Assembly (NCBI GenBank): GCA_950295325.1 | Contig: OX485805.1 | Span: forward strand, 40,659,501-40,723,500 | DNA: 64,000 nucleotides | Reading direction: 5' to 3' | Origin: Polytrichum commune | Lineage: Eukaryota > Streptophyta > Polytrichopsida > Polytrichales > Polytrichaceae | Part shown: positions 5,283-62,412 of the stretch, one piece after another | Numbering within the stretch: the first letter of the stretch is position 1 | How the letters are laid out: each line of letters begins with the position of its first letter | The notes under the pieces: generated by a model | What the model saw: only the letters and a program-made list of their open reading frames with translations | Database searches by the model: none | What the model was told of the DNA's origin: nothing | Position numbers and translations under genes: made by a program

Positions 5283-5420
5283 AGAACTGTCCGGTAGTTA
5301 CAGATGAACCAGTTGAGTTTGAGAAATAACCAATTGAAGTTCAAGACTTCAGAATAATTACCCATCATTTTAGAGAAAATCTACAAAATATATCTTAAAT
5401 TAACAAAGAAAATCGAAAGA
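5283..5420 (+). repeat. Dispersed repeat, copy 1 (pair at 21400-21535)
   Basis: The stretch beginning agttacagatgaacc and continuing with ttgagtttgag, aataacc and gttgaagttca is repeated with about 15-20 percent divergence at 21400-21535. Both copies end in an AT-rich ctcaaattaa/ctt aaattaa block. The nature of the element is unknown. Confidence 0.7.
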
Positions 5421-5553
5421 TCACAACATGTAACTTGTTGAATTAAAAAACACCAACATTTTGATTGATTATGTCCCAAATTTTCCTCAGACACTACGCA
5501 TCTTACATAAAATGTTATCATAGTTTCTAATGGTTTTATGACATGACATAGCG

Positions 5554-17753: not shown

Positions 17754-18700
17754 CACTAAATATGATATTTAGGGGTTGTTTACATCATGGACCATGAGTC
17801 GTCCCAAGGCCCTGCAAAATTTGTGATTGGTTGTTGAACTTGTCCCAAGACCACTTCGGTTTACACTAAGGAAAAAAATATTAGAGTGACCATGGAGTTT
17901 GAGGTTCTCAAAACACCTATTTTAAGGCCTACATTATCCACTGACATGGTCCAATGGGTTTTGCGGTGGGAGAGGCAAAAGAGGTGCTCTCGTAGAAAAA
18001 GGCAAGGGCCCATGACATAAATATATTGTTATAATATTTTTCATGAATTTTTTTGGGGAGGTGAAGATGAATACAAGAGAATGATCAAAAATTGAATATT
18101 TTATTCTTTTTAAAAAACTGCCTTTTGTGGACATATATCAAAAAAATCAGCACATTCCTTTTTTGGTGCATGGTAATTCCTCTTGGTCCACATTTGGTTT
18201 ACACCTAGTGAGGGGCCCAAAGGCTTTGTAATTTTAAATTTTAAAAAATCAGACCATGGAAGTTGGACCATGAAGTCGGACCATGGAAAAAGGCCAACTT
18301 CCATGGTTTGACTTCATTGTCTATATATGGTGTAAAATATCTCTTAGTGTCACAACTTCTAATTGTCTTGCTCAATACTAATTGTAAACCGCAGTGTAGT
18401 GCCACCATCACTATATGTTAACCCAACATTATTTGTCATTCGTTGTAAATTTTGGGGGGGGATTATAGATTTATAGTGTTGCAATTACTGTCACTTACCA
18501 AGTGATTTTTCATCCAATTTCCATCATCCTTGACAATATTTCATCACAAGATGCTGAGAAGAGAATGTAGGGTTTTGGCTAATGGATGAACTCATTCATT
18601 ATCCAAGACAGTATTTGTTCACTTATTCATGAGAAGCGTCATCCAATAAGTTACCATAGTGACATAAAATACCATATGACACTAAATACCATATTTAGTG
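17754..18700. mobile_element. CACTA...TAGTG-ended element interrupted by a nested MITE
   Basis: The ends match the 17286-17619 element (left CACTAAATATGATATTTA, right ATATTTAGTG) with TA on both sides. A separate 572-bp MITE sits inside the left terminal repeat at 17772-18343. A related copy without that insertion lies at 28295-28677, sharing tgtcttgctcaata, aattgtaaa, catttgtcatt and gttgcaattact in the same order. Confidence 0.65.
17772..18343. mobile_element. 572-bp Harbinger/Tourist-like MITE with TTA duplication
   Basis: The left end is GGGGTTGTTTACATCATGG and the right end carries its diverged complement (ccatatatggtgtaaaatatctc). Both flanks are TTA (17769-17771 and 18344-18346), the 3-bp target typical of PIF/Harbinger elements. 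No transposase is encoded. A second copy is at 27674-28223. Confidence 0.75.
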
Positions 18701-20033
18701 TACTACTTACGAATCAAGTTTTGGGTTAGGGGACCCAATAAGCAGAAGCCAAGCTAATTCCAGTCGCGCTCAACGGCTCCCTATACACCTTCAACTATGT
18801 AGTATCAACCTTCTTAATGTCAATCCTACTCTTATATCCCGAAACCCGGATGTTCTTGGTTTAGACCTCACTCCTTGTTGTCACGTTCCCCTCCCATATA
18901 TCACGGGTTTTGACATTAAAGTAAACCATCAAAGAATTCACACCACATGTTTGCATGCATCACGTTGCCATCGTTATAAGTATTATTATTACTTCAATGT
19001 TGACTTTGTGTTTTCTCATAATGTCACATGTTACATTAATTCTATGTTATCACGCATCCATGTTAACACTGTAAAACTCCTTAATATTTGTGTGCACTTT
19101 AATTGCCACAAGCATGATATTACGGAGTTTAGAGTGTCTCTCAATTGAATAACAATGGGGTTTAGGGCGATTTGTGAGCCAACAACTCCAACAACAACAT
19201 TTGCGTGCAGATTACCAGAATGACGTCTACTAAGGACCATGTGAGAATTGTGATGCATGACTTATAAATGAGGGTATCCCTACTTGAAACGGTGACCAAT
19301 GGGTAACTAGTGATTTGTGTCTCTTGTTTTTGGGTAGGGGGGGGTGACCCTCTCAAGTTGATCACCTCCAAATTTGAAGGAGCTCATGACCAACTTGAAA
19401 TGGTCACCTTCGGCCTAAACCCTAACAAGAAGAGTACCTAGCCACCTTCCTATGTGATGCATGAGTTCCGATCCACATATGAGGGCTTGTCAACTCGAAA
19501 TGGTGATCAACAAGTAGTTCTTGCTAATCTCTTCTTGTTTTTGGCCGATGGTGGCCATCTCAAGTTGGATTGTGTGAGGTGCACATATAGGTAAATGGTG
19601 GTTTCTAATGCCAAGTTCTCGGTGTATGTGGCATATTCCGTGAACGTAGAGCCTTTTAACATCCGTTGCTTGGTCTTCAACTGTGGTGAATGCAAGAGTG
19701 AGTGTGCAAGAAGTTTGCCACATTTACTTTTGATGAGAACCGGCTCCTTCGTTGATGTTGAAGGTATGCTCATCGACCGTGAGAAATAAAATTTGCAGTG
19801 CAATGTGTTAAAAGTTTGTTCCTCAATTATATCATAGTCAGTTGGTTTGGTTTCCTAACACCTACCGATGGGGTAACAGTAAAAAAAATGACTCCATGTA
19901 GATTGATTGTTGATTCATCTCAGTTTAAGCTCACTGGGTTGATTAGGGGTCTTTGACCCTAATTTAGGGGTTAAATTAGTTTAAAATAACAACATTTGCC
20001 TCTATAACATTATTCAGCGTACAACTCTCATTC
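18701..20033. other. Intergenic, no supported gene
   Basis: Around 19270-19590 the motif caa(c/g)t(c/t)gaaatggt(g/c)a recurs with ctcaagttg, giving a weak local repeat. Reverse-strand open frames at 19490-19803 have no recognisable domain. Confidence 0.4.
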
Positions 20034-21399: not shown

Positions 21400-21540
21400 G
21401 GCAGTTAGTTACAGATGAACCGGTTGAGTTTGAGGAATAACCGGTTGAAGTTCATCAAGACTTCAGGAGAATTACACATCACTTTAGAGAGGAATTTATG
21501 GAATACACCTCAAATTAATATAGAAAAGCCGAAGAATGTA
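21400..21540 (+). repeat. Dispersed repeat, copy 2 (pair at 5283-5420)
   Basis: Begins agttacagatgaaccggttg and continues colinear with the 5283 copy to ctcaaattaatatagaaaag. It is followed by a T9 run and gagacagaaggca at 21547, which resembles the reverse tail of the SINE-like family. Confidence 0.7.
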
Positions 21541-22359
21541 AACATTTTTTTTTTTGAGACAGAAGGCAAACCCAGCCAACGCCAAATGAATTGAAGACAA
21601 AAGCAAATCGCACCCATCACCGAGGGGAGGCGGGACCCCTCGGGTGCGGGACACCGCCACGTAAGAAGAACCAAGCATCAAGACCCCACCGCGGACAACC
21701 CTCTTACCCCATCCTTCCGAAGAACCACCCCCACCCCACTTGCCAAGGACAACCCCCAAGCCACCTACCCACCAAAGAGGCGGGGATAACACTACCTACA
21801 ATGCCTTTTCCAATTCCACATGTAACCGGTTGGATTTGCAAACACTAGGATCTCAACCGATTAGTATGCCCCAAAATCTCCCCGATCACTGAAGTGGATG
21901 CGCTATCAGAAATGCCAGTTGTTGGTGGACCTCACCCCACATGACTGCCAGTGTAGTTGCGAGCAGTGTGTGTGTGTATGTTTGACAAATTTCATTTGAC
22001 ATTCAACTTCAAATCTAAAGTGTCACGTGACGTTTTCAAAAACACAAAATGAATGTCAACTGACATCGACTTTCTCTTCTAAAATGTCACCTCGATGTCA
22101 CATGTCTAGGAGTACGTGTTGTTTCAATTTGTAAATGTCAACTAACGTGTGGTGTTTTTCTTCGCGAGTCACACTACATGTCAAACTCTAAATCGTGTGT
22201 GTCAATCAACGTGCGTTTTTGTTTTTGTGCAAGTTTTTGCGTGTCAAATGTCAAAAGCTTGCAAAAACTGATTCAAACATACACACTGATTGCCAGGTTA
22301 CCGTGACCAAAACTCCAGTCTATCTACGGTAGACATGTGTTATTCCCGCACATTTTTTT

Positions 22360-23890: not shown

Positions 23891-24431
23891 CAACCACACA
23901 TTCAACCTCAACTATTCAAATGGAAAAACAACCCTTTGAGGAGCTTTCATACATGGAAAAAAGAAAAAGAAAATGAGTGGAAAGGTGGGTTTGGCACTAC
24001 AACTACATTTCCAACCATTTTTTATTTATTTTTCTTCTAGTATGCGGGATGATTTTCAAAGGTCAACACTTGAAGGCTGGTAGACCAAACTTGGTTTCAA
24101 GCCTTCATAGAGGTACCAAATATTTTAATGGGAGGGATGCGCGAGAGCACTCGACCCATTGCCTTCATTCAACCATACATTCAACCTTGACTATTCACAT
24201 GGAAAAAAACAACCTTTTGAAGAGCTTGCATACCACAAAAAGCTAAAACAACAACATAATGAATGGAAATGTGGTTCCCTCACCGAATTATATTCTTGAA
24301 TGTTGTTTTTTTCCTATCATATAAGAAATATACACAATCTTCTACGATTCTCGTGGTGCTCATTGGATATGACAATAGATGAACATGCGGAGATGCCAAT
24401 GTGCAACCTTGCAAAGACAGTGCACAACAAA

Positions 24432-25221
24432 CAGGGTTGTCTATCGCGACGTCATGACGGGGTCGTGCCGTCATGACGCGTCGTGTCGGGTCGGACCCCT
24501 CCGTCACGACACAATAGGCTCCTCGTAGGGTCAAACTAGGGTCAACCTAGTAGGGTGGGTAAAATACTTACCTTCTTGCCAAGGTGGCATCCTATGTGGC
24601 AAAAAATGCCGACGTGGATGTGCATATTTCCCTTGGCATGTAAACCATTTTGCCATTGTGTTTACCATTTTGTTAAAATCAAAGTCATAAAATATTACTA
24701 AGGAGGGTGTAGGTCGGACGGGGGGAACAGGGGGGGGGGGGCGGACGGGGGGGAACGCGGGGAGCGTGTGGGAACGTGGGGAGCGGGGGATGGGAGCGGG
24801 TTTAGGAGGTTTGGATAGGACGGGATGGATGGGAATGGGGGAGGGGAACGGGAGGGAGGACGGGGGGTCGGACGGGGGGGAGGGTCGGACGGGAGGGAAC
24901 GTAGGGAACGGGTTAGGGAACATGTTAATGGGCTAAGGGAGCGGGGTTAGGGTACGGGGAACGGGGGCGGACGGGAGGGCGGACGGGTGCTAGTAATTTT
25001 ATTCCCCACTTTACCTCTACTTTGCTGACATGTCATCACACATGGACATCGTAACTCCTACGTGTCCACAATGGGGTAATGTAAATACACAAAAAATTTG
25101 GTAAAATTCAAGTCCGGCAGGATAAAGACATCATCCGTCATAATGTCGTGACGGATACGTGTCGTGACGGCACGACATTATGTCGGGATTACCCTCCGTC
25201 ACGACACAATAGACAATCCTG
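24432..25221. mobile_element. 790-bp hAT-like MITE with perfect 8-bp TSD
   Basis: Ends are CAGGGTTGTCTAT on the left and, in reverse, CAGGATTGTCTATTGTGTCG on the right. The target duplication acaacaaa is perfect (24424-24431 and 25222-25229). The terminal CAGGG, the 8-bp duplication and the many subterminal copies of gtcgtgacgg/ccgtcacgac are hAT hallmarks. The middle carries a G-rich tandem stretch and no transposase. Confidence 0.9.
24712..24995 (+). repeat. G-rich degenerate tandem stretch inside the hAT-like MITE
   Basis: Short units around ggacggggggg, ggaacg(t/g)gggg and ggtcggacggg repeat for nearly 280 bases, with many G3+ runs. The reverse complement reads as a Pro-rich frame, which is an artefact. 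Confidence 0.85.
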
Positions 25222-25499
25222 ACAACAAATGGCTTCAACAGTCCGGCAACAAGATGACTTGCATGTACAAAGCAATAGTGGATAATTTGATGTGTGTGTT
25301 CATGCACATTGTGAATCCACTGGTAAAGGCCATGATTTGGCGTCCTTGAAATTGAAGGTTACTTCTAATTGTGGAGATCCCAAGTTGGTCACAAATGCCA
25401 CAAAGGTTTATCATGGGTAGAAGATCTTAACACTAGGGATTGTGGCTTGGAAGGGGTCAGAGTTGTTTGGGTCTACTTGATGCAAATATTAGTTTTTAA

Positions 25500-28294: not shown

Positions 28295-28677
28295 CACTAA
28301 AAATATTGGTATTTAGTGTCACCGATTTTGTTTGTCTTGCTCAATACGAATTGTAAATTGCCCGTGTAGTGTCACTTATACTAATGTAAACCTAGCATCA
28401 TTTGTCATTCCTTGTAATCTTTTGTTGAAAATCATAGGTTTACAATGTTGCAATTACTATCACTTACCAAGTGTTTCTTTTTTCATTCAAGTTTCAGTTA
28501 TCCATGACAATATTTCATTACGGAAATGTTAGGATGCTGAATATACCAAACTCAAAGAGGAGGAGCTACAAGTAAGTTGGCATGGCAATACTTGTAAACG
28601 TATTCATAACAAGTGTCATTAGAAAAGTAACCACAATGACATAAAGTTCCATACGACACTAAACACAATACATAGTT
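28295..28677. mobile_element. CACTA...-ended element without the nested MITE
   Basis: It is colinear with the outer parts of 17754-18700. It begins CACTAAAAATATTGGTATTTAG and reads straight through tttagtgtcacc, the site where the 17.8-kb copy carries the 572-bp MITE. It is therefore a natural empty-site copy. The right end is eroded. Confidence 0.65.
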
Positions 28678-34601: not shown

Positions 34602-36050
34602 CTCTCTTGATAATGCACCACCCGTAAGTTAGTGTATTTCGCATGTAAGGTACTAGGGCCTTAAAGCATCAATTTAAGAAACTCTTGCTATTTTGGGTAG
34701 GTTAAGTAGCTTGGAAAATTTTCCACAAAAAATCCATAGATTAGCGAATTTATACGAAGTCTACAAAAAAAATTAAAAATTAAAAATATATGCAACCTAG
34801 AAAAATTCTCAAAGTCGTTTTAAGGAAAGAACCTTTTATTGTCAACTAGGGGGTGGGGGTCTATTGATGTTGGATTGCTAAGTGAGGATCATCACAAAAC
34901 CAACCTTATTGCACATGAGGATCTGTTATAAATGAAGGTGTCGTCCCCCTTATGTGGATCACTTATTACACCACCTCGTTGAGCAAATAGATCCCCAACC
35001 AATCATTGTGATTGGCCAAAGTTGGTGCTCTTCTAAAAGTGTTCTTGCATGCTTCTTACGCCGATGTTATGAATGGCCAAAGTGGTGTTATTTAATACTT
35101 AATGCCGCATGAGATTACTCTATTTCAACAATTACTTACTTGATGGCCTCATTGCACTCACTTGCTTATGGCTTAAGGATTAAAAACAAGTGTCACCAAA
35201 AGGAAGGTGACACTTTAAGGCCTCAATACCTTAAGTAAGAGCCCACTCACATTCCCGTCCATAAAAAGAGCTAAGGTACGTGGGTCTTATTTGATTACGC
35301 TTCTTAATTGGACACCTATATTTTGAGTGGTACCTACATGTATGGCAACGTTTCTAGTTTTAACATTGGACATCAAAAGACACAAATATGTATTATATTA
35401 AGATTGGACTATCAATGTAATGCCTAAACTCTTAAATTGTATGAATCTCAATTACGATCCTAGAACTTGAAATGGCTATCTTTGTGATTTGCAATTGTTA
35501 TCCACACGGGACAACTCCTTGGCAATTCCCAAGCCAATCCAACAACAAAAATTGCACGCACAATAAGACCACAAGATAACTTACTTAAGGCGTATGTGCC
35601 TAAATTGAACACAACAATAATTTAAATACCTATATTTTAGTGGTATGTGGTTAGGTGTGGATCTAAGCAATGGCACCAAAAAGACATGTGCTTAGAAAAG
35701 ATTCGACTACGTGCTCAAAACACATTAACCATTCTAGCTCAATAGTCAACATGATTTTTTTCGGGGGGAGGGGGGGGTATGTGACCACTTAATGAACACG
35801 AGAATCTTCACTTTGATAATCAATAAGATATTCATACGAGCTCCACACATTATGAGCTACAAACACGGTTTGGATTCGCTAATCATCTTGGACTTCATAT
35901 CCTATGAGAAGTGGGAAGAATTTTTATGCTAATATCACATCAAAATGTAACTTATGAGATGTTTGGCGCCAAATAATTAAACCCAATAAGTGATGAGTTA
36001 CCAAGAAATGAACCAACCTGACAAGCAACGATACCCCACACGTGCCCACA
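34602..36050. other. Intergenic; includes a reverse copy of a dispersed repeat
   Basis: Most of the stretch shows nothing recognisable. At 35640-35940 a reverse-strand copy of the 'cacccacttctc' family is present (cttggacttcatatcctatgag, ggagctcgtatgaa in reverse). Confidence 0.5.
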
Positions 36051-49879: not shown

Positions 49880-51360
49880 ATAAATATGGGCACAATTTAA
49901 AAATCTGGTCCCTATTTCCATTTCTCATACTGGGGCTTCAAATAGAGGGGGAAAAGAGTCTTTGCATGGATAGGATATTACAACTCCCACTTGGGGCAAT
50001 TCGGTGAAGGATATAGAAAAAAATGAAAGAAAATTGGGACAAGATTTTAAAGCTGGGAGAAGCCCTGCGGGTTGGAATTTACATAAATCTCACATGAATA
50101 TTGCTTTTTCTTCTTGGCATAAGACTGTGTAAAAATTGAAATTAATATTTAATATAAGAAATATGATTTCTAAACTTGGTGATTTTTTTTATAAATATAT
50201 TAAGCACCTTGGTTTTTAAATAGTTAATTTTAACATCACTCATCCATAAGCAATGATATAGCCTAACCAAACTGCGAATTTCAATCTTGCACTAAAGGAG
50301 TAGAAAATAATGTTTGGTGTTTTCTTCTGCTCATACGTGTGAAGTGTGGTCAACTTTGGAAAACAATTTGCTCGTCCATGGGCCAGTGCCACATTAACAC
50401 ACCCATGGCATCCAAGCAATTTGGAACATGACATATGGATATGTTGCAACATTAGCAAGTGTGGTGGCAAGATCGGGAACCTTCAACAGTAGAGTGTGCC
50501 TACTTGCCGGACTTGTGTTTGTGATGTATGTGTGTACATGACGTTGCAAATCATATTGTTGGGTTTAGGGTACTGTAACATCATAGCAGGTTCACCACCT
50601 GCCGCACGAATATTTATTTTTTATGAAAAAATAAGGTTTGTGTTCCAAAAATAGATTTTTTTGAAATTCGTCTTCTCATTTATTGGATTAAAAATCATTT
50701 GTGTTTAGGGTGGAAAAGATGTGCAGAAATGCCATTTTATTACACAAAATGAGCAACAGAAATCAATCCCAAAGAACCTCATGAGAATTGCAATTGATCG
50801 ACTTCACAGCTGCCAGAATTGATTGTCAATGCCATTGAGCCACTACTATCAACATGTGAAGAGTATGGCAGGGGATCAAATTGTGCCTATGGCTAGCTCA
50901 ATTCAAAGATCCCGCCTCTTTTGAAACTATCTAGTTTACAAGACACCTCAAATATCTATGAAGCTTTGCCGATGTAGACCAGAAAGATGGATATTGATCC
51001 CTAGAAATTTTAGAATGACAACTTGATTGCAGGCCTCTCACCAGAGGGAAACTATCTTATGAGCGATGAATAGTGAGCGATGAGCAGTGAGCAGTAACAC
51101 ATGAGCAATGAGCAGTAACATATGAGCAATGAATCCAAATTTAGTAAAGGCACACGGGTTTAGGTTACACAACCATAATTTTGACAAATTAATTGCATAT
51201 TTTCAATTGTAAATTGCCAGTATTTTAAATGAAGCACAAGTGAAAGGACCCTATTGCCATGGATTCTTTAAAATACTTTTAATCCATTGATGATTTTTAT
51301 TATAATAATCCAAACCAATACATGTAATTTATTGACATCTTTATACATGTAGTTACAACC
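49880..51360. other. Intergenic with a small minisatellite
   Basis: At 51058-51132 the motif gagca(g/a)t(g)agcagtaaca repeats several times. Nothing else is recognised. Confidence 0.5.
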
Positions 51361-51369
51361 AACACTTGC

Positions 51370-52790
51370 ACAACTATTCACATTTTACAACACCGGCAAG
51401 TTCAAGTAGGTGCATAACCTCATTGTATGTATATGTAGGTGCCAACACATATTTCTTCCTAGTGCCATTTACACAACGCTTGCTGTCATCAGGGCAAAAC
51501 CAAAATTCATATTCCACATTGTTGGTAGAACGAAATTTCTTCTTGAGCCCTTTGTATGTTGGTGCAGGTGTGTCATGTTTGCTACTCCCGACTTTGACAT
51601 TGCATATAGTCCATGTAATGGCTTGCAATGCCCAACATGTGCTGAGTTGGGTGGTAATCTTCCAATGTACCAATTGGAAATGAGACATTCAGTCTCTAAC
51701 ATAGATGTAGTATGAACCACATCATGCTCTGCAAAAGTCAACGATTCCTCTATGCATTGGCGAGTTGCCCGGGTGTTAGGACGAAGAATGGAATAATTCA
51801 CTTTGTCAAGTCGATGCAGGTTGAGTTTTCGTCTGGTGGATCCAAATAGCTCGGACTTTTCCAATGCACAATCTTTGGTTTTGGCGCCTTGTGCCCCTAG
51901 GTAAGACTTCATAACAACCATACCCGATAATTTGCAATTTGCATGAAGGCATGAATCATGTCATCCACTGTTGTTTCATATAAACAAGTCATCTTGTTGC
52001 CGGACTCTTGGAGCCATTTGTTGTGTAAAGTTTCTGCAAGGTTGCATGTTGGTATTTCTGCATGTTCTTCGATTATCATGTCCTATGAACCACACACAAG
52101 TATAGGGTTAGGAAAAATGAATTATAGATATGTTAGAATTAAAATAAATCAACAAAAAATAAATGACATTGAATAATATAGATTACTATGCACTTACAAA
52201 TAACCACCCCATTGTCGATAACGGCAATGCCAAAATTCCAACCACTTTGAAAGGCCAAGGATGCCTTCCTCTGTGGTAGCTCCGGATGACAACCATCAAG
52301 AACAAATGACATAGTACTTAGTCTCAACATCGTCCATTATTTTTGTATCTTTGTAATCCTTGCAAAGTTGTTTGTGTTGAAATTGCAAGGATGGTTTGAT
52401 ATACTTTTGTGTCACCTTATCTAAACTTGCAGATCAATGAAAAAAAAATATACGCTCACGTGTGACCATGAGCAAAGTTAGATCATCATCATTGTAAATC
52501 ATCTTCACCGCATTTCAATTAGCTTAAGCACTGTCTGCCATGAACCCTTTGAAAATTACCTTTGAAACACTATTTTCTGCCATTACAATATTCAATTTTT
52601 TCCAAAAGAGAGCTTGTGTTGGACCATCCTCAGATTGCATGTCACAACACGTAATGGTCAACACTTTACAATATCGACTATCGTACACATAACAAGCCAT
52701 TGCTGTCCAATCTTTCACATGTTTAACATGGTCAACCATAATTGTGAGCCATTCAAACCGCTCACGGATTGAGTTAAGGCCTACAATCTA
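51370..52790 (-). pseudogene. MULE-like transposase family member, decayed
   Basis: Exon A runs 52790-52198. It reads SIRERFEWLTIMVDHVKHV, then YDSRYCKVLTITCCDMQSED and FKGFMADSA, a stop, ANWNAVKMIYNDDD and, after a shift, FWHCRYRQWGGY. The CDMQSED and FMADSA.ANW.AV blocks followed by a RER-and-aromatic segment resemble the D...D core of MULE/FAR1-type transposases; this is inference. A GT-AG intron (52197-52083) leads to exon B: MIIEEHAEIPTCNLAETLHN, WLQESGNKMTC, TVDDMIHAFMQIANY, then ELFGSTRRK, NWYIGRLPP and PAPTY, with FWFCPDDSKRCV near the end. Exon B is homologous to the long frame at 61180-62412. Stops and shifts make this copy non-functional. Confidence 0.7.
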
Positions 52791-52854
52791 CAAAAACAAG
52801 AAAATTAGATATTAGAAATAATAAATATGTAGGTAGCTACAAGGCTTTGAAACA

Positions 52855-52990
52855 TCCGCCTGTGGATGCGAGTTATGTAAGAGACTGGTATTAGGTCTGG
52901 ATCAACCTGGGTTCGAATCCGGTTGGTTACATTGACTGGGGCTATCCCAAATTGAGCTAGTGATAAAGCAAGAATAATCTATAGGCGGAT
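52855..52990. mobile_element. 136-bp repeat with short TIRs and a Pol III B-box motif
   Basis: The ends atccgcctgtgga and (in reverse) atccgcctatagat are inverted repeats. The interior has gggttcgaatccggttgg, a tRNA-type B-box match. The T-stem does not pair properly, so this is not a tRNA gene. It may be a SINE-related or composite mini-element. Confidence 0.5.
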
Positions 52991-54049
52991 ACAAAGAAGA
53001 GGTTATTACACGGGTGTGCGTAGAATCTTCTCGATTATTTTTTATCTTTAGAAACTTGTTATTATTTATCCGTGTGAATCAATCAAACCGCTCACGGTTG
53101 GATCGTAGTCTAAATAGAATGAAGTTAGTGAATAGAAATTAGATTTAGCCCTCAACCAAAATCAAGTTAGGGATCAAACCAGACCGGGTCATCCTCATCA
53201 ACCAAATTCCCAAGACGCTCAGTATGTCGACGTGAATTCCATGGACCGAATGGGCAATAATGATCCAATCCTCCAGAACACACTCATTGTACTACACGAG
53301 CATAAGCCAATGTTCTCCTCTACTCTTCTTATTGGGTGGGAACAGAAACGGTAGATGCCACAATTATGACTAGAGCCCAACGGTTAGTCAACCCCCTACA
53401 GAACACATGGCGGAGACCTCTACTCCCTCGGATGGATCACCAAATTTTGTTCAATTGAACAAGGTCATTAACTCCGCGGGAAACTTAGTAGTGTGAGCGT
53501 AGAGCGGAGAGTGGATAGCGGAAATTGGAGAGCGGAAAATTTTGACTTTGTTGGGTAAAAATAGGACAAGCATTGCCTATTTCCGTGGAATTTATAGATA
53601 GTTTGAATTCAATTTGTTGGAAAGGCACCCCAATCCCGTGGAGATATTAACCCAACCTAGGTCGAGGAACAAATGGAACCTAAAGGCGTGGAAGAATGTA
53701 TTTGTTATCAAAGATCTTATAGTCTAGATTTTGAAATGGTTTCATATTAAAATAGGGCTGACGTCAGCAATTGTGTGAAGTAGCCCTTAAATGTTCTTAA
53801 GTGTACTTAAATGATTTCCAGAAAGTGATACATTGCCCCAAGTGGCTACGGTACTCTTTCCAAGAATTCTTAGATGTCCAAAATTCCCATACACAAAATA
53901 TTTGATTGGCCGAGATAATGTAGGTGAAGTTAGGTGCCAAAGTCAAGACTTACAAAAATGTGTATCCAGTTCAATTTGCTATAAACAGTTTGCTCCAGAA
54001 AAGAAAAAAAAGGTGTGCGCAAAAAAATCCATTTGGCTCCTCCACGTGT

Positions 54050-54550
54050 CTACACCCTATTGGCCGGGCATGTCCAATACAGTGCACCTGGATGAAAGCT
54101 CATGCCATAGAACTCCACCGCACAGAGTGACATCTCCAATTCATCCCTTAGCTTAGCCAATTTCAGCAATTTTAAATCCCCCAAGTCCAACATAAGAATC
54201 CTCCGCGAAATCTGTGAGCTGACGTGGCGGCTATGTGAGAACCACATCAAGTTTAGTTGAAATTGAGTGATGAGGTTATGTTCGCGTGGCAAACAAACCC
54301 TTGTGACAACATTGGGACCCATTGTGTATTCATATTGAGCCAAACGAAGAGCATTGTACTCCGCACTTTTATCCACAATCATTTCCCATGCTTTGCAAGA
54401 TAGCCTCAAACTATGGATTAGCAAGAAACGGAGTTGGGTGTCCAATGCCGTCTCTGAACCCATATCCACATTTGCGGCACCCACCAACAAGTTTGGGACC
54501 AAGACCGTCAATTGTACATCTTTGTCCAAATACAATGCAAGAGGCTCCAT
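54050..54550 (-). CDS. Unrecognised ORF, possible partner protein of the transposase-like element
   Basis: ATG 54550 opens a 166-codon frame ending at 54050, with protein-like composition: MEPLALYLDKDVQLTVLVPN, ANVDMGSETALDTQLRFLL, SLRLSCKAWEMIVDKSAEYN and a Leu/Lys-rich helix (LGDLKLLKLAKLRDELEMSL). No stop interrupts it. I cannot name a domain; two or three amphipathic helices are likely. It lies 1.26 kb upstream, on the same strand, of the transposase-like pseudogene at 52790-51370, as an accessory ORF of the same element might. An upstream in-frame stop sits 17 codons before the ATG. A chance ORF or a separate exon remains possible. Confidence 0.45.
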   Translation of the reverse strand: MEPLALYLDKDVQLTVLVPNLLVGAANVDMGSETALDTQLRFLLIHSLRLSCKAWEMIVDKSAEYNALRLAQYEYTMGPNVVTRVCLPREHNLITQFQLNLMWFSHSRHVSSQISRRILMLDLGDLKLLKLAKLRDELEMSLCAVEFYGMSFHPGALYWTCPANRV

Positions 54551-54640
54551 CACGTGGGATTGGCGCGATCTTCCCCAACCTGATGCGCAAACCTCAATGA
54601 GTTACAAAATGAGAAACATTCATCATATGAATCCAACCTT

Positions 54641-55778
54641 TATGAAATGTGGCCGAGAGCTAAACATTTACTCAAACATTAAAGATTTCTGAAATATGGC
54701 CGAGAGCTAAAACTTAACTCAAACATTTTAGATTTTGATATTCGGCCGAGAGGCAAACCTAAAGTCAAACATGCATGATTTATGAAATGTGGCCGAGAGC
54801 TAAACAATCACTCAAACATTGAAGATTTTTGAAATATGGCCGAGAGCTAAAACTTAACTCAAACATTCAAGATTTTTGATATTTGGCCGAGAAGCAAACC
54901 TTAACTCAAACATGCATGATTTCTGAAATGTGGGTGAGAGCTAAACAATCACTCAAACATTCAAGATTTTTGAAATATGGCCGAGAGCTAAAACCTAACT
55001 CAAACATTCAAGATTTTTGATATTCGGCCGAGAGGCAAACCTTAACTCAAACATGCACGATTTCTGAAATGTGGCCGAGATCTAAACAATCACTCAAACA
55101 TTGAAGATTTTTGAAATATGGCCGAGAGCTAAAACTTAACTCAAACATTCAAGATTTTTGATATTCGGCCGAGAGGCAAACCTTAAGTCAAACATTCAAG
55201 CATTCTAAATTGTGGCCGAGAGCTAAACATTCACTCAAACATTCAAGATTTCTGAAAAGTGGCCGAAAGCTAAAACTTAACTCAAACATTCAAGATTTTT
55301 GATATTAGGCCGAGAGCTAAACCTTAAGTCAAACATTCAAGCATTCTAAATTGTGGCCGAGAGCTAAACATTCATTCAAACATTCAAGATTTGTGAAAAG
55401 TGGCCGAGAGCTAAAACTTAACTCAAACATTCAAGATTATTGATATTAGGCCGAGAGCTAAACCTTAAGTCAAACATTCAAGCATTCTGAAATGTGGCCG
55501 AGAGCTAAACATTCACTCAAACATTCAAGATTTGTGAAAAGTGGCCGAGAGCTAAACCTTAAGTCAAACATTCAAGATTTGTGAAAAGTAGCCGAGAGCT
55601 AAACCTTAAGTCAAACATTCAAGCATTCTGAAATGTGGCCGAGAGCTAAACATTGACTCAAACATTCAAGATTTCTGAAAAGTGGCCAAGAGCTAAAACT
55701 TAACTCAAACATTTAAGATTTTTGATATTCGGCCGAGAGCTAAACCTCAAGTCAAACATTCAAGCATTTTGAATTGTG
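54641..55778 (+). repeat. 47-bp satellite-like array with a 141-bp higher-order unit
   Basis: Monomers of about 47 bases start ggccgagagctaaa and end aagatttctgaaat or similar. Three subtypes (ending in gaaatgt, gaaatat and gatattc) alternate, so the 5' half repeats every 140-141 bases (ggccg at 54651, 54791, 54932 and 55073). The 3' half is less regular, with duplications of one subtype. About 24 monomers in total. Confidence 0.9.
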
Positions 55779-56760
55779 GCGGAATCCTCTAGCCTATCAG
55801 AATCGAGACCCTTAGATTACACACATGATCAACCAAAAAAAACACCAAAATTTTGTGAGAGGGGCCGAAGCCTCTAGCCTCTTGGAACCAAAAGGCTTAG
55901 CCTACACACATTCTGAACCACAAAACAACTTCAATATCTGGTGTGATGGGCCGAATCCTCTAGCCTATCACAACCGAGACCCTTAGATTACACACATGAT
56001 CAAACAAAAAAAACACAAAAATCTGGTGAGAGGGGCCGTAGCCTCTAGCCTCTTGGAACTAAAAGGCTTAGCCTACACACATTCTCAACCACAAAACCAC
56101 TTGAAAATTTGGTGTAAGGGGCCAAATCCTCTAGCCTATCGGAACCGAGACCATTAGATTACACACATGATCAACCAAAAAAAACACCAAAATTTTGTGA
56201 GAGGGGCCGAATCATGTACCCTCCAAAAAAAACTTCAAAATCTGGTATAAGGGGCCGAATCCTCCAGCCTCTCGGAACCAAGACCCTTAGCCTCCAAACA
56301 TGATCAACCAAAAAAAAGCTTCAAAATCTGGTATAAGGAGCCGAATCCTCTAGCCTTTTGGAACCGAGACCCTTAGCCTACCCACATGATCAACCAAAAA
56401 AAAAATTCAAAATCTGGTGTTAGGGGCCGAATCATGTATCCTCCAAGAAAAACTTCAAAATCTGATATAAGGGGCCGAATCCTCCAGCCTCTCAGAACCA
56501 AGACCCTTAGCCTCCCCACATTATCAACCAATAGAAACTTCAAAATCTGGTATAAGGAGTCGAATCCTCTAGCCTCTCGGAACCGAGACCCTTAGCCTAC
56601 CCACATGATCAATCGAAAAAAACTTCAAATCTAGTATAAGAAGCCGAATCATGTAGCCTCTCGAAACCGAGACCCTTAGCCTACCCACATTATCAACCGA
56701 AAAAAATTCAAAATCTGGTGTAAGGGGGCAAACCTCTAACATCCAACCTTCTTGAGTTAT
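55779..56760 (+). repeat. 85-100-bp tandem array (gccgaatcctctagcct unit)
   Basis: Units read ggggccgaatcctctagcct, then cggaaccgagacccttagcc, cacacatgatcaacc and a run of A's followed by caaaatctggtgtaa. In the first part two subtypes (gacccttagatta and aaaggcttagcc) alternate, giving a dimer near 171 bases. Units of the same kind reappear at 58640-58810. It directly follows the 47-bp array without a gap. Confidence 0.88.
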
Positions 56761-56769
56761 GGCCGAGAG

Positions 56770-57010
56770 CTACCCAACCAACACTGGCATTTGTAATGTA
56801 GCATATGGACTTGGAAGTATTCCAATGTGAAAAGGGTGCACGGGGATGTGACCATCATTGGGATAATATTCGTTTGGAGTGCTCTAGATTAATGGGGTGA
56901 ATCTTACCTTGATTGGGGGATCATAGCTAATACTAATGGGGATGCAATCTTTATCATTATGACTATAATGCCACATGCAAAAATCTGGTGCATACCTGTG
57001 AGCCCAAAAT
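56770..57010 (-). pseudogene. C-terminal fragment of the transposase-like family, copy 1
   Basis: The reverse frame reads NQCGHQFWAHRYAPDFCMWH then YSHNDKDCIPISISYDPPIK and VRFTPLI before a stop. This aligns with YAWYCSEVNYDPSTG and VQVRTVTPHL near the end of the 61180-62412 frame. Frame and stops show it is a remnant. It is duplicated at 58850-59075. Confidence 0.5.
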
Positions 57011-57638
57011 TGATGCCCACATTGGTTGTTAACACTTTTAAAACATTACAAGTGGTGTTTTGGTGATTTATGATTATTCACAAAAATATAAAAAGAGTGA
57101 AGCTTGAAGAAAGCTTTGTTTGAAACATTAGGCTTTTGTGGAGTGGATTTAAGTAGGAGAAGGACAAACTTTGGTAAAGTGTGGTAGGTAGAAAGCCAAG
57201 GTTAGTTAAATGTTTGAATTAGGATCCTTGTTGATCATTTGAGGGAGGAAGGCTTAGGAGATAGGATTAGAGCCTACAAAGTAGGAGGAAATCTCGAGGG
57301 CTTATCGTGAGCCTTGAGGGTGCTCACCCTCTCAAATTCACTATATAATCCCTCATTCTTCCCTCATTCATCCTCTCTTTCCTTCGTGCTCCTTGGCACT
57401 CCACGTGTTATAAGTGTGGGTGCGTGGGAAGCAAGATAGGAGCACGTGTGTGTGCATGGATGTAAGCTTAGGAGCCAAGGCTAGTTGGCCTTGAAGAGGG
57501 TTTGACCTCTTGTTAGTAATAGTTGGGCGTGAATGATTTAAAGTTCAATTTATGGCTTTGTTTGAATACTTGGATTTACATTGATTAGCCTTATACTTAT
57601 GCGGATGTGCAAAGTCTTTTATTGGAGCATTTAGTTTT

Positions 57639-58092
57639 GTTGGACTTCATATGAATTTTTGAAAGCCAAAACACCGAGACTATGTCCAAACTTCCAAAAA
57701 CTAGTGAAAAAGTGTAGGTTCAAAGGGAACAGCGTAGAATTGCGACAATATACTTTGTGGCAGTAGAAATATTATTGCATATTCATGTAGAGGACTTCAT
57801 TACCTATCCATGGATACCAAGAACTCATTTTTTGGACTTCATATGAATTTTTGAAAGCTAAAAAACCGAGACTATGTCCAAACTTCCAAAAACTAGTGAA
57901 AAAAATGCAGATTCAAAGGGAACAGCGTAGAATTGCGACCATATACTTTGTGGCAGTAGAAATATTATTTCATATTCATGTAGAGGACTTCATTACCTAT
58001 CCATGGATACCAAGAACTCATTTTTTGGACTTCATATGAATTTTTGAGAGCCAAAAAACCGAGACTATGTCCAAACTTCCAAAAACTAGTGA
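57639..58092 (+). repeat. 193-bp tandem repeat, about 2.35 copies
   Basis: Units start at about 57639, 57833 and 58027 with ggacttcatatgaattttt, and contain ccgagactatgtccaaac and ccatggataccaagaactca. The third unit is cut short near 58092. Copies differ at only a few positions, so the duplication is young. Confidence 0.92.
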
Positions 58093-58264
58093 CACACTGT
58101 TATAGTTTTTGACTTATGATGTTTAGACTTAAAGCGTTGGATTCATTAGGTAGGAAGGGGTGTGTGTAACTTTTGAATGTATTGGTGATTGACCATTGAG
58201 GTTGAATTTAGTAATGGAATGTGAAGGCCTGTAAAGGAGAGGCCACTATAAGTTACACAAGTAT

Positions 58265-58459
58265 TTGTTAATACTTAAACTTATGTGCTTCATAGAATCA
58301 ACAAGCGAAGGTTCGTGCAGTAGTGTGGAATCAACGGCGAGGACTCGATTCACACGAGGGATATCTTTGAAGGCATGCGTGGCCAAAGCGGCCGGGTGGA
58401 CTTTAGATAAATACAAGGATGTGACATTACCCGAGATTAAGGAGTGTAAGAGGACATAG
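58265..58459 (+). other. Short open frame, unrecognised
   Basis: A 64-codon frame reads SSVESTARTRFTRGISLKAC and then AAGWTLDKYKDVTLPEIKEC before a TAG. The composition is protein-like and it could be a stray exon, but I know no family with this pattern. Confidence 0.25.
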
Positions 58460-58639
58460 TATAGACTTGGCTAAGTTGCGTATATTCCAACGATAGATTG
58501 GAATCATACATTGTGTTACAAAGAGAGAAATCTCTACATATCATTATAAATTTCTCCATTCGGGCTAGGACGAAATTGAAGGGTGGAGGCTTTTTGGTGA
58601 CAATACCCCCAACCCCAACCCCCCAACTTCTCAATCCCC

Positions 58640-59080
58640 CAACCCCCAACCTCTCGGAACCGAGACCCTTAGCCTACCCACATGATGAACAAAAAAAAAC
58701 TTCAAAATTTGGTATAAGGAGCCGAATCCTCTAGCCTCTCGGAACCGAGATCCTTAGCCTACCCACATGATCAACCAAAAAAAAAATTCAAAATCTGGTG
58801 TAAGGGGGCGAATCTCCAACATCCTACCTTCTTGAATTGTGGCCAAGAGCTACCCAATCAACACTTGAATATGTTATGTAGCACATGGGATTGGAAGTAT
58901 TCCTATGTGAAAAGGATGCACGGGAATGTGACCATCATTGGGATGATATTCGTTTGGATTGTACTAGATTAATGGGGTGAATATTAACTTGATTGGGGGA
59001 TCATAGCTAATACTAACGGGGATGCAATCTTTATCATTATGACTATAATGCCACATGCAAAAATCTGGTGCATACCCCCA
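58640..59080. repeat. Second copy of the array end plus adjoining fragment
   Basis: 58640-58810 carries two units of the gccgaatcctctagcct array. From 58795 to 59080 the sequence is about 90 percent identical to 56713-56998, including the transposase-like C-terminal fragment (reverse frame DKDCIPVSISYDPPIK). The block has therefore been duplicated over about 2.08 kb. Confidence 0.85.
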
Positions 59081-59447
59081 ACCCCCAACCCCCGACCCCT
59101 TAACTTGAGAAATATCAAGCCAACCAACAAAGATTCAACCCGTCCACCCGAACTTCCTTAGACAAAAAAAAATGTGGTGCATACCCCCAACCCCTAGACA
59201 CTCTCGGAACCGAGAAGGTCTTTACATTGTCCAACCCATTAACTTGAGACATATCAACCCAACCACCAAAGATTCAATCCGTCAACCCAAACCTCTCTAG
59301 AGAAGTGAAATCAAACACCACCATAAGATGAATAAGGAGTTGAATGGGGTTTGCAAAAGGTACATGGAAATTCAACAAATGAACTTATGAAAAACTTAAA
59401 CATAAACAATACATAGGAGATGGAGGTTCCAAACGCACGAGGCGTAG

Positions 59448-59773
59448 TCAAAAATTTGGACTATCATGTCTATCACTATCCTCGCCCTGCTTGGCCTCTA
59501 TGTCTAGGAAATCCAATACTAGTTTGTTGAAAGGGTGGGTGCAACTAGGAGGTGGGGACGGTGCTTCCGCCAAAAGATGGGCAAGCTCAGCAGCATAGAA
59601 AGGGAGCTCAAACGTCGTCGAAGGCGTTGCAAACATGTCCGCATTAAGGACGCGGATGGGGCTCTCATTTTGAACTCTGCACACATAGGAAGATAAAAAA
59701 GAAAACATAAGCACATGTCCAAAATTCCAATACGAGAAGATAAAAATGCAAACAAGTTAGAATCGGACGACAC
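59448..59773 (-). other. Unassigned reverse frame
   Basis: A frame from 59714 to 59448 reads ADMFATPSTTFELPFYAAEL, AHLLAEAPSPPPS and FNKLVLDFLDIEAKQGED before a stop. It is protein-like and could be an exon of the element containing the 61180-62412 frame on the same strand. The sequence just upstream (59775-59940: gtgagcgtagagcggagag, tatttccgtggaatatata) recurs near 53495-53600, beside the other transposase-like copy. Confidence 0.35.
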
Positions 59774-60303
59774 GTCTATGTGAGCGTAGAGCGGAGAGCG
59801 GAGAGGAATGAAATATAGTAAACTTCCTAGACCAAATTTAGAATTATTTAAAAAAAACTCGAATATGCTCCAAATATTCCAGATTCTCCTAAAATAGTAA
59901 AAAAATGTGACCTATTTCCGTGGAATATATAGGTCCAAAAATAAATCAAAAGGCCTTGTATTTGAAATGGTCTCATTACATTTGGAAATCGGGAAGTGCT
60001 AAAATGATAAAAATTTAAGATAAAACAGATAAATATACGATTAAAACCAATGATGATCCCAAGAAAGAACGAATGAAAATGATTTTATCGAGGTTGGTAT
60101 AATTCAAGAATGAGTCAACCAAAATAGAAAGGACGACCAACTTGCTTCGTTTTTATTCCATCACTTTTGTCTTTGTCCTATGTTTGAGTCAATTCTAGAG
60201 CTTGGACACCAACAATTATTATTTGTGGTCGAAGAAATTATCTTCAGCTAAATATAAATGAGGACATAAGTTAGACTCGTATCCAATACATGCGTAGGGA
60301 CGC

Positions 60304-60834
60304 ATGCATACAATAGGAGAGGAGAGAGATATGTTTGCTGGCCTAGGATGGGAGAAGGAGATTAGAAGTCTAGGAGATCCTCATGTTCCCTTTAATCCAT
60401 CGCCGGAACATGACATAGGTGCTGGAAATCAACATAGTGATGACTACGAGCTCACTCCATTTTCGCAGTCCACACAAGCATGGAGGTGGAGGATGCAGAA
60501 GGAGCAGAAACGATATGCAAATAATGATAAAATGCGAGCGGATGTGCAGAAGATGGACGTCACAAGGTGCATGAATAGTGGGGCAAATGATGCGGCTGAT
60601 TTGAATGTAGATACGGAGCAAGGGATCAAGGTGGTAGGAAAATCTTCGAGGTCTCTGTCGTTTCGCAAGATGATGAAACACTTTTCACCGCCTCGTAGTC
60701 CATTGAAGGAACGGATGAGGGATAAAACGGTGTCGTACGTTGATTTGCTTCGACCGGATCCACCCCCATCAAGAAGGGACGAGGAAAAGAAATCCGAAGC
60801 ATGTAGGAGGTTGGAAACACGGAAGTATAGTTGA
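60304..60834 (+). CDS. Hypothetical 176-residue protein
   Basis: An uninterrupted frame from ATG 60304 to TGA 60834. The protein is polar and charged: MHTIGEERDMFAGLGWEKEI at the start, an AWRWRMQKEQKRYANNDKM helix with basic residues, and a basic Ser/Pro-rich end (SFRKMMKHFSPPRSPLKERM, PDPPPSRRDEEKK). No transmembrane segment, signal peptide or recognised domain is visible. It sits on the strand opposite to the transposase-like frames around it. It may be a first exon, an element-encoded accessory protein or a retained chance ORF; the codon pattern and lack of stops favour real coding sequence. Confidence 0.45.
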   Translation: MHTIGEERDMFAGLGWEKEIRSLGDPHVPFNPSPEHDIGAGNQHSDDYELTPFSQSTQAWRWRMQKEQKRYANNDKMRADVQKMDVTRCMNSGANDAADLNVDTEQGIKVVGKSSRSLSFRKMMKHFSPPRSPLKERMRDKTVSYVDLLRPDPPPSRRDEEKKSEACRRLETRKYS

Positions 60835-61179
60835 TAGACATAGTAGGCATGCTAAATTGAACATGTAGTGTTCAATAGTGGGAGAGTCATTTGACACAAT
60901 TGCGTATTATAATAAAACATCTTGAAGGAAATAAAAATAATCCATGGAATTTTATTTATTATAGAAAACAATTATGAGTTCACATGATGTCCACAATTGG
61001 CACATCTAGTAGGACACAATGTATTGGTAGGCTGAGCTGAATTCTAGGAAGTAGAATGTGTCAAAAGGCCCCTTTCGAGGATGAGTTTGACTTCATTGAA
61101 GCTAAAGGTCAGGGCGTGAATGAACAAATTCACTTCCGCATCCAAATTAGAAAACTTGATGATGATGTAATATAGATGC

Positions 61180-62412
61180 TTACAATTTAGATAAAAATTT
61201 CGTTTGCGGCCGAACTTGGAAATCATATCCAAGAAGCATGCGCAATTGCACTTTGGAAGAGAGCTCACTGTCACTTGGTAGATGGGGGGTTACGGTTCTG
61301 ACTTGGACTGCAGAGTGATAGTGCAACCAAATTCCGGTTGAAGGATCATAGTTAACTTCAGAACAGTACCATGCATAGCTTATAGAGGCAACCATCTGCC
61401 TCTGCTTTGCTGAAGGTGCAATGCTAGATCGCCGAACAACCTTGGACAATCTTGTCGGAGGGATGAAGTCTGGGTGTTCTGGAATACGGATTCCAGACAT
61501 ATCCAGTGGGGGAGTGGAGTTGGTGAAGAGTCGAGTTGGTGTGATGCGCTCCTTTGGTGGGAGTTGAAAACCTGCGTTCTCAAGCGCGAAGATCTCCGAA
61601 CGGGTGAGGTTGGTACCAATCTTGACGGGCCAGATTGGGGGAATAGGAGGTTTCTGATCATCAGCAGAGAATGGCATGACCCATTTCCGACGAGGGCCCT
61701 TTACACAACGCTCGATGTCGTCTGGGCAAAAGACGAAGTCCATGTGCTTCTCCGCTTGGAGTTTGTAATGATGCCACATATCGGTGTAGGTCGGCGCAGG
61801 GACGATCTTATTATTGGTGACGATTCTTGCTGAGCACTTCTTCTTTGTGCCCGTTTGATTAGCCCAACAAGACTTCCCAGAGGTATGGGGTATGCGGGCA
61901 ATATGCCAAAGATAGAAATCTACTTTGGTTTCTTGCACGGCGGTGACACGATGGAAATCAAGTCCTGCAGGTGAAGCCACTTGAATCTCTTGTACAGACG
62001 GGGAAGACTCCTCAATGATAGTAGGTAGTGGTATTGGTTGAGATCGAGTGACTCGCTTACCGGGGCAAGGGCGAGAGAAGTTGACGGTATCGGGGCGGTG
62101 AGTCTCGCCATCATCACCAATTGGAGTGTCCGGTCTTCGCTTCTGCGATCCAAACACCTCGGGGCCCTCAAGGTGTGGATCGCGAGTGCAAAACTCTTCC
62201 CCACCGGGCATGTCAAGCAAGACCTTTAGCAACACTGTGGAGTCGCCAGTACGCTGAGCTCGACGTTGAGCTCCCCTGAGCTTCAGTTCTTCTTTGCTTG
62301 GACCATCACCGCCAATTCCACCTTTAAGGAATTGGTAGTATGCAACAACTTGTAAGAAGGCGCGAATGTAGTCGTCCACCGTAGCCACTTGTGAGCCCAA
62401 AACAATGTCCAC
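61180..62412 (-). CDS. Transposase-like family, long undisrupted C-terminal exon
   Basis: A 410-codon frame with no stop. Early residues (ATVDDYIRAFLQVVAYYQF) match TVDDMIHAFMQIANYR of the 52-kb copy, so this is exon B of the same family. Following in order are KEELKLRGAQRRAQR, GPEVFGSQKRR, FYLWHIARIPHTSGKSCW, VPAPTYTDMW, FVFCPDDIERCVKGPRRKWV, then a Pro/Arg-rich middle (IPEHPDFIPPTRLSK) and YAWYCSEVNYDPSTG near the end. The C..C spacing in CW..C and FCPDD...RC suggests a metal-binding or DNA-binding module; this is inference. The frame has no ATG at its 5' edge (an upstream stop lies at 62424-62422), so it is probably a terminal exon; a catalytic exon like 52790-52198 was not found in front of it. 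Confidence 0.6.
   Translation of the reverse strand: MDIVLGSQVATVDDYIRAFLQVVAYYQFLKGGIGGDGPSKEELKLRGAQRRAQRTGDSTVLLKVLLDMPGGEEFCTRDPHLEGPEVFGSQKRRPDTPIGDDGETHRPDTVNFSRPCPGKRVTRSQPIPLPTIIEESSPSVQEIQVASPAGLDFHRVTAVQETKVDFYLWHIARIPHTSGKSCWANQTGTKKKCSARIVTNNKIVPAPTYTDMWHHYKLQAEKHMDFVFCPDDIERCVKGPRRKWVMPFSADDQKPPIPPIWPVKIGTNLTRSEIFALENAGFQLPPKERITPTRLFTNSTPPLDMSGIRIPEHPDFIPPTRLSKVVRRSSIAPSAKQRQMVASISYAWYCSEVNYDPSTGIWLHYHSAVQVRTVTPHLPSDSELSSKVQLRMLLGYDFQVRPQTKFLSKL

Follow-up and report, generated by a model that had tools for sequence, protein, structure and literature searches.

A family of giant, plausibly Mutator-like transposons in Polytrichum commune with a methyltransferase-like accessory gene and subfamily-specific palindrome arrays

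The canonical Mutator-like element (MULE), as represented by MuDR, encodes a transposase with a D-D-E core, a CxxH motif and a SWIM finger, is bounded by inverted repeats, produces a long, usually 9-bp target duplication, and carries a convergent second gene at its 3' end. Cargo genes of another kind have been reported in giant algal transposons of other superfamilies. The 21.5-kb Sola-1 DNA transposon Sola1-1_Ec32 of Ectocarpus has an opposite-strand gene for a 1104-amino-acid protein with ParB-like and N4C/N6A methyltransferase domains, and that report offers the open suggestion that such a cargo protein binds and modifies its own element (PMC12477816). In the present work, a stretch of 64,000 nucleotides from the land plant Polytrichum commune (assembly GCA_950295325.1, contig OX485805.1, here C3:40659501-40723500 of a 407.8-Mb genome), referred to below as the window, was analyzed together with related copies elsewhere in the genome. 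What the window holds of giant DNA transposons is a set of dead fragments, and the lineage to which they belong, termed here the giant family, is real, large, and recently active elsewhere in the genome.

The giant family resembles Sola1-1_Ec32 in being a giant DNA transposon with a methyltransferase/ParB-like gene opposite the transposase, whereas the Ectocarpus element comes from a brown alga, belongs to the Sola-1 superfamily, and is described, in the part of the report cited, with no mention of palindrome arrays. With MuDR it shares the D-D-E core with CxxH, a SWIM-like finger, inverted repeats, a long duplication and, by position, a convergent second gene at the 3' end. It differs from MuDR in its size of ~15–26 kb, in a 10-bp duplication instead of the usual 9 bp, in showing no match to the Pfam MULE family PF10551, and in possessing an accessory gene and palindrome arrays. 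VANDAL elements are of the Mutator kind, and VANC proteins come from the VANDAL elements of Arabidopsis. VANC proteins are reported to bind motifs in tandem repeats that differ from one related element to the next, and to cause loss of methylation (PMC5735166). The likeness lies in a plant transposon family with a non-transposase gene and with targets, here candidate ones, in variable non-coding tandem repeats. In contrast, no match to any VANC-type family was found here, the VANC21 motif YAGTATTAY is not palindromic, and the loss of host methylation is a measured result of the VANC work. Bacterial ParB-parS offers a further analogy, with clustered palindromic sites near a gene carrying a ParB-like motif; however, no ParA was seen here, the chromosome is eukaryotic, and ParB homology was unsupported by the searches. 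As for size, a review of giant transposons gives at most 7 kb for the Pack-MULEs of one study and 16–20 kb for EnSpm elements in a red alga (PMC6431247).

Literature searches showed no ParB/methyltransferase cargo of a land plant among the matches listed, which is no proof of absence in print, and only the Ectocarpus paper (PMC12477816) was relevant among the matches listed for the combination of features. What is new here is the land-plant host, the plausibly Mutator-like carrier, and the changing palindromes, the strongest novel point being an accessory gene paired with subfamily-specific palindromes. The explanation preferred as a whole, to which a probability of about 0.6 is assigned, is that the window holds dead pieces of a giant transposon that inserts in a Mutator-like manner and whose ParB-like/methyltransferase-like protein would act on the palindromes.

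Genome searches scored the best candidates only, and all copy counts given here are therefore lower bounds. Young copies end sharply on the 3' side at ...GTGTCGTCC; by our own count, 22 of 44 rows stopped exactly there (query position 387) and 14 more stopped at most 8 bases away. To the left of the transposase frame, the element extends for at least ~11 kb to its true 5' end, where three copies begin at GGGAAACTCAAGTATGTGAGCGTAGAGCGG, an imperfect inverted repeat of the 3' end GGACGACACTTGTATGTGAGCGTAGAGCGG. The terminal inverted repeats, ~58 bp long as judged by eye, are imperfect, with the outermost dozen bases partly differing, and carry the motif GAGCGG. Copy A (C3:8688372-8705035, 16.7 kb) and copy B (C6:42449703-42468017, 18.3 kb) are 99.6% identical over 6.8 kb, and the size range given above was taken from the coordinates of A-type copies with both ends. 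A 601-bp stretch left of the transposase gene matched at 98–100% in all 40 scored copies (the best 40 of 82 candidates). In another search, which also scored 40 copies, a 5' terminus was visible in 31, and the 22 of these with both ends listed were used for the duplication test: an exact 10-bp target duplication was found in 20, a 9/10 match in one, and none in the remaining copy (C1:28014370-28032045).

The original prediction, made from the letters of the window alone, had considered either a lineage-specific, multi-copy transposon or a host gene derived from one. The former is supported by ends that are sharp, by the inverted repeats and the 10-bp duplications of the target, and by the presence of nearly identical copies on several contigs. 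The latter was rejected in view of the large number and young age of the copies and of the 10-bp duplications on either side of them. A short 5.5-kb element starting at the ACGACACTTGTA motif was also rejected, since all 40 scored copies run through that motif. As a separate observation, two other copies, in L018 (C7:7601500-7606499; L numbers denote stretches of this genome) and at C4:4752613-4753475, are followed within a few hundred bases of their 3' end by the 3' flank of copy A in inverted orientation.

The transposase gene of L010 is spliced from a 766-codon and a 555-codon frame, which contain, in this order, a C/H-rich stretch, MMSDH (first D), FMADSA (second D), TCFFHW (CxxH), CNLAES (E), the FCPDD block, and CNC...NCKH. 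The core was aligned in five rows, namely A, C4 (L014), E, D, and the window relic, with motif positions picked by eye. Both aspartates, the H of CxxH, and the E were invariant in all five rows, and the C of CxxH was lost in the window relic. The spacing in the giant family is 66 between the two aspartates, 29 from the second D to CxxH, and 131 from the second D to E, close to that of the MULE L071 of the same genome (67, 37, and 131, respectively).

An FCPDD..RC module had been proposed to stand in place of the SWIM finger. The motif is a real conserved block, present in four of the five aligned rows and replaced by FYADD in the fifth, subfamily E. It is no replacement, as a CxC...CxH SWIM-like finger stands 3' of it in all four full-length rows, the window copy included, where the finger is out of frame (61379-61047). 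The Pfam SWIM model reached 13.1 bits in subfamily D, short of its 19.6-bit cut-off and behind an unrelated domain of unknown function (DUF) that was itself sub-threshold, and gave no row for L010 or the window piece. A metal site in the FCPDD block is doubtful because its cysteines are not all conserved, a four-cysteine site being weakened by the Y for C in subfamily E.

The core had further been called MULE-type, which is plausible by motifs and spacing and is confirmed by no profile test. Target duplications of the Mutator superfamily range from 8 to 11 bp, and a SWIM zinc finger is common, though not universal, within it. The giant family agrees with Mutator elements in duplication length, terminal inverted repeats, a D-D-E with CxxH at motif level, and the SWIM-like finger. 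Several results count against this assignment. By hmmscan, PF10551 gave no match on the giant-family transposase, and no giant-family locus was found, on checking by eye, among 142 genome-wide PF10551 matches. Alignment with hhalign to MULE profiles was weak (P 0.081 and 0.21); against MULEs, P ranged from 0.08 to 0.46 compared with 0.17–0.8 for reversed controls, the last comparison being no better than the controls. The spacing is also less alike in the MULE L064 (59, 21, and 114), and the first two values in L068 are 66 and 23. Since the profile tests failed, the label used here is only "Mutator-like", based on motifs and duplication length; the transposase is plausibly Mutator-like and no proven MULE member. 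These negative, weak, or control-level results would also fit a transposase from another DDE superfamily that makes 10-bp duplications. That alternative is considered distinctly unlikely, as the D-D-CxxH-E order, the SWIM-like finger, and the duplication length point to Mutator. In the Protein Data Bank (PDB), the transposase core profile retrieved a single match, a snake-venom chain at E 0.015 that was taken as chance, and the C-terminal profile none; sub-threshold Pfam rows apart from SWIM and N6_N4_Mtase, such as FERM_M, XRN_M, DUF6208, NTR2, and MRC1, were likewise attributed to chance.

Full copies contain, upstream of the transposase gene and divergent from it on the opposite strand, a spliced accessory gene of at least nine exons that has no intact counterpart in the window. 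The homology-guided model for copy A comprises 964 amino acids, and the match breaks of L063 and L062 coincide with its exon joints. A 235-amino-acid stretch near the C-terminus has DVIMDWQCGVGGSITACRSLERHIVALESDP, arranged like motif I of N6A/N4C methyltransferases. Annotated methyltransferases made up all 15 best of 66 records in a phage tblastn search (best E 9e-4) and 14 of the 15 best of 20 records in a plasmid search (E 0.2–6), the other record being unannotated. A three-subfamily profile retrieved DpnA from PDB at E 2e-4; the next matches, at E 0.3–0.9, were two chains of protein disulfide isomerase and two methyltransferases of the cytosine-N4 type. In subfamily D, Pfam N6_N4_Mtase scored 14.1 bits, under its cut-off of 26.7, and Pfam and NCBIfam scans of the A-type protein gave nothing relevant. 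The methyltransferase matches span the motif I half only. Judged by these independent searches, which agree on the class, the accessory protein holds a DNA N6A/N4C-methyltransferase-like domain. Its N-terminal part, in which W[ED]GNHR is conserved in all three rows, is tentatively read as ParB-like.

Some observations on this gene are unfavorable to the reading preferred here. The ParB-like label is based on a single motif, and no ParB was found in the phage, plasmid, or PDB searches, one of which was judged on the best 15 of 26 records. The N-terminal, ParB-part exons had no match in the L062 stretch, the L063 gene is interrupted by internal stops, and no clear GT donor was seen where exons 5 and 6 join. 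The DPPY position is degenerate, reading DIPEN in A, DVPEN in L062, YIPEN in L063, and QFPDG in D, and methylation activity may for this reason be lost. A catalytically dead protein that serves purely as a sequence-specific binder, acting as a VANC-like anti-silencing factor, is accordingly a serious alternative, rated somewhat short of even odds: the comparison of four copies shows DPPY degenerate in each, with the motif I region retained, and VANC targets are reported to be often tandem repeats variable between related elements (PMC5735166). Against it, the motif I region and the acidic residue that follows are both conserved, although a protein that only binds DNA would have no need of them. 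The accessory gene gave no Pfam match above cut-off, the VANC domain included. In viral contigs, none of 21 pattern matches was confirmed, and the passages on 6mA in one paper have no bearing on this gene (PMC12695648).

Tandem repeats fill kilobases of the central region that separates the two divergent genes, at a distance of kilobases from both ends. Within the retrieved pieces of three copies, the number of perfect palindromes that measure 16 bp or more and have the core GCCTCGGATCCGAGGC was 31 in A, 37 in B, and 44 in L017. The units of L013 and L063 are unrelated to those of the A type and hold CACCCTCTCGGAACCGAGAGGGTG, and those of L014 and L062 hold GACCCTCTCGGTTCCGAGAGGGTC. The 22-bp A-type palindrome occurs exactly 1,903 times in the genome, versus 0 for the reversed pattern, and 49 of the 50 distinct palindrome sites listed lie in or beside family copies. 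One exact 22-bp palindrome, at C1:13839475, was not placed in any family copy. Across four subfamilies, including the diverged subfamily D described below, central tandem arrays carry a dyad-symmetric site, with two unrelated site types. The changing palindromes suggest a protein-binding site comparable to the VANC targets or to parS. GATC as a conserved methylation target was rejected, as it is present, among the palindromes compared, in the A type only.

The arrays are not uniformly favorable to this interpretation. The L013 and L014 palindromes are approximately one motif in opposite orientations with a differing outermost pair, and only two independent site types can therefore be counted. 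The 47/48-bp arrays of the window (54639-55780) and of L062 show no dyad in their consensus, the outer arms of the 85-bp window units are asymmetric, and subfamily D has only five (copy D1) and seven (copy D2) perfect sites of at least 14 bp. Palindromes in general promote instability. It is conceivable, if very unlikely, that the arrays are ordinary slippage minisatellites whose palindromes persist by chance or through hairpin-driven instability, as would fit the arrays lacking a dyad, the instability just mentioned, and the copy numbers of the arrays, which differ between near-identical elements. Against this, the A-type and L013/L014-type units, though unrelated, have CTCGG-NN-CCGAG in common, and their arms vary in step on the two sides of it; subfamily D has an unrelated long palindrome at the same place.

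Subfamily D is represented by copies D1 and D2 (L072/L073 and L074/L075), which share ~11.6 kb. Its transposase is 44% identical to that of A, and its accessory gene is found at the same place and on the same strand, with 34% and 27% identity. The methyltransferase part was matched in D2 only (25% identity). The central region contains a different palindrome, e.g., AAACCCTGTGCGTTAACGCACAGGGTTT. The target duplication of D1 and D2 measures 10 bp if the end is ...TTCCCTC and 9 bp if it is ...TTCCCTCA. As subfamily D keeps the gene layout with another palindrome, the layout outlives large divergence while the palindrome changes.

The ratio of nonsynonymous to synonymous substitutions (dN/dS) was 0.12–0.30 in four comparisons of transposase exons. 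Two accessory-gene exons gave 0.13 and 0.30, and a small convergent open reading frame (ORF) gave 0.29 and 0.37 between copies other than those of the window. Synonymous distance (dS) was saturated in four of 12 comparisons, including the ParB exon and a small reverse ORF (dN 0.74). Purifying selection on both genes was shown where measurable. Between L010 and L014, the synonymous distance was 1.36 in transposase exon 1 and 0.34 in exon 2, a contrast that hints at mosaic subfamilies. The small convergent ORF (MGDERDMFAGLGWEKEIRSLGDPH...) is conserved at the 3' end in L013, L014, and L010, gave no family match above cut-off, and was not found in D1 or D2. Small lysine/arginine-rich reverse ORFs were also seen between the arrays and the transposase in A and D (L073:548-868 and L010:1473-1925, minus strand).

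Subterminal repeats serve as binding sites for CACTA transposases. By comparison, the palindrome arrays might be the transposase's own binding sites, working as internal enhancers, with the ParB/methyltransferase-like gene as passive cargo. The transposase, too, differs between subfamilies (the A–D divergence given above), and a 32-bp repeat with a dyad sits between the two transposase frames of D. However, the arrays are central, kilobases from both ends and between the divergent genes, and the terminal repeats have another motif, GAGCGG. The dN/dS values of the accessory exons and the retention of the gene across deep divergence are also unlike passive cargo. On balance, transposase-owned sites with passive cargo are regarded as unlikely.

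For the preferred reading, in which the accessory protein acts on the palindromes, the following course of events can be proposed. The transposase would bind the termini and insert the element with a 10-bp stagger by cut-and-paste, like Mutator-like elements. The ParB-like/methyltransferase-like protein would bind the palindromes as a dimer, and once bound it could coat or modify the regulatory center of the element, holding both divergent promoters out of host silencing. Palindrome site and accessory protein would change together between subfamilies. Binding, anti-silencing, and methylation are all inferred. In its boldest form, the proposal is that of a land-plant transposon with its own ParB-parS-like module, whose protein loads onto dozens of element-specific palindromes and either marks the element or shields it from silencing by the host, co-evolution leaving each subfamily addressed by its own protein only; this form is speculative and judged rather unlikely.

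Within the window, the original prediction had listed five colinear transposase loci. Three of these, at 62.4–61.2, 52.8–51.4, and 24.3–25.5 kb, do hold transposase sequence, all exceeding chance (weakest protein E 2e-4), and two do not. The 3' end at 59765, a second giant element from 53478, and the SWIM-like finger 3' of the frame had not been listed. No intact copy was found in the window.

Element 2 (59765-62388, minus strand) is a 5'-truncated copy of the giant family that retains the 3' part only, with 88% DNA identity to L014:4568-7156 up to the 3' terminus of the element, where the terminal sequence CGTGTCGTCC stands at 59765. It contains the C-terminal transposase exon (62388-61180, minus). 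The part up to the frame break, with the PAPTY..FCPDD..RC block (61384-62388, minus), aligned at 90% amino acid identity to positions 108-442 of the 555-codon L010 frame; the exon continues in another frame, after a frameshift and with one in-frame stop, through the SWIM-like finger CNC...NCKH (61047-61379, minus; 87% to L010 frame 445-555). The 413-codon frame at 62418-61180 (minus) had at least 101 scored genome matches including itself, from 2043 first-look candidates; the others showed 84–90% amino acid identity, nearly all over positions ~11–347, and 66 of the 101 rows were stop-free in the matched frame, as counted from the listing. At the 3' end of Element 2, the window relative of the small convergent ORF (60301-60774, plus) is 62% identical at the amino acid level to the 162-amino-acid ORF of L010 (E 1e-63).

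Element 1 (53478-59764, plus) is the left part of a second giant element, with the 5' terminal repeat GGGAAACTTAGTAGTGTGAGCGTAGAGCGG at 53478, and is cut at 59765 by Element 2. Positions 53495-53770 are 84% identical to the left end of copy A at the DNA level. Its tandem arrays (54639-56725, plus) consist of 47-bp units without a dyad and of ~85-bp units with TCTCGG-AA-CCGAGA, e.g., at 56576, the outer arms of which are those noted above as asymmetric. The two loci that had been listed as transposase copies at 57.0 kb (56720-57018, plus) and 59.1 kb (58800-59088, plus) fall within this element. They are one giant-element repeat with no transposase match; the first is 91% identical to 58800-59076, and the pair matches a repeat in L062, a stretch with a related giant element, at 75–77% (77% to L062:2433-2608 for the first). 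A remnant of the 3' part of the Element 1 accessory-gene region follows at 59322-59762 (minus), with 81% DNA identity to L062:4762-5199 (E 1.5e-115).

A rearranged relic of subfamily D occupies 51041-53107 (minus), with 79–93% DNA identity to pieces of D1. Its core (52742-52155) contains in-frame stops and is followed by the C-terminal part (51957-51374) and a 3' terminus near 51041; the copy, core and C-terminal part, is 48% identical to the L010 core. The 52.8–51.4-kb locus had at least 150 genome matches (best 150 of 1704 candidates), the other 149 at 67–79% identity. Four of five read-through stops at 52155-52787 (minus) occupy positions at which relatives encode W (three TGA stops) or Q (one TAA stop), a pattern that would result from C-to-T decay at methylated sites. 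The locus at 24353-25476 (plus) is a short D relic of the transposase in two pieces ~0.8 kb apart (24353-24431 and 25222-25476). The D1 insertion has a paralogous empty site at 34758-34899, where sequences resembling the two flanks of D1 join around AGGGGGTGGGGGTC with no element between them; the left one is 74% identical over 97 aligned bases and the right one 91% over 45. Directly outside the window lies a subfamily E transposase, 58% identical to L010. Window positions 18426-18579, 18871-19137, 28396-28521, 5334-5480, and 21439-21886 match the host flank of copy B (L010:7020-9822), and that flank therefore holds dispersed repeats. Elsewhere, the genome contains three LEAFY loci, in keeping with a land plant, and the two that were read differ at one position, KMRHY versus KMRDY, the D in place of H being a hint of a moss.

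If true, the preferred reading would bring land plants, and a carrier of the Mutator-like kind, into the known range of ParB/methyltransferase-like cargo. The giant family has abundant young copies, and its several subfamilies in one genome form a natural experiment in which the accessory protein and its candidate binding site diverge while the layout stays. Given this divergence under a constant layout, the suggestion that such a protein binds and modifies its own element becomes directly testable.

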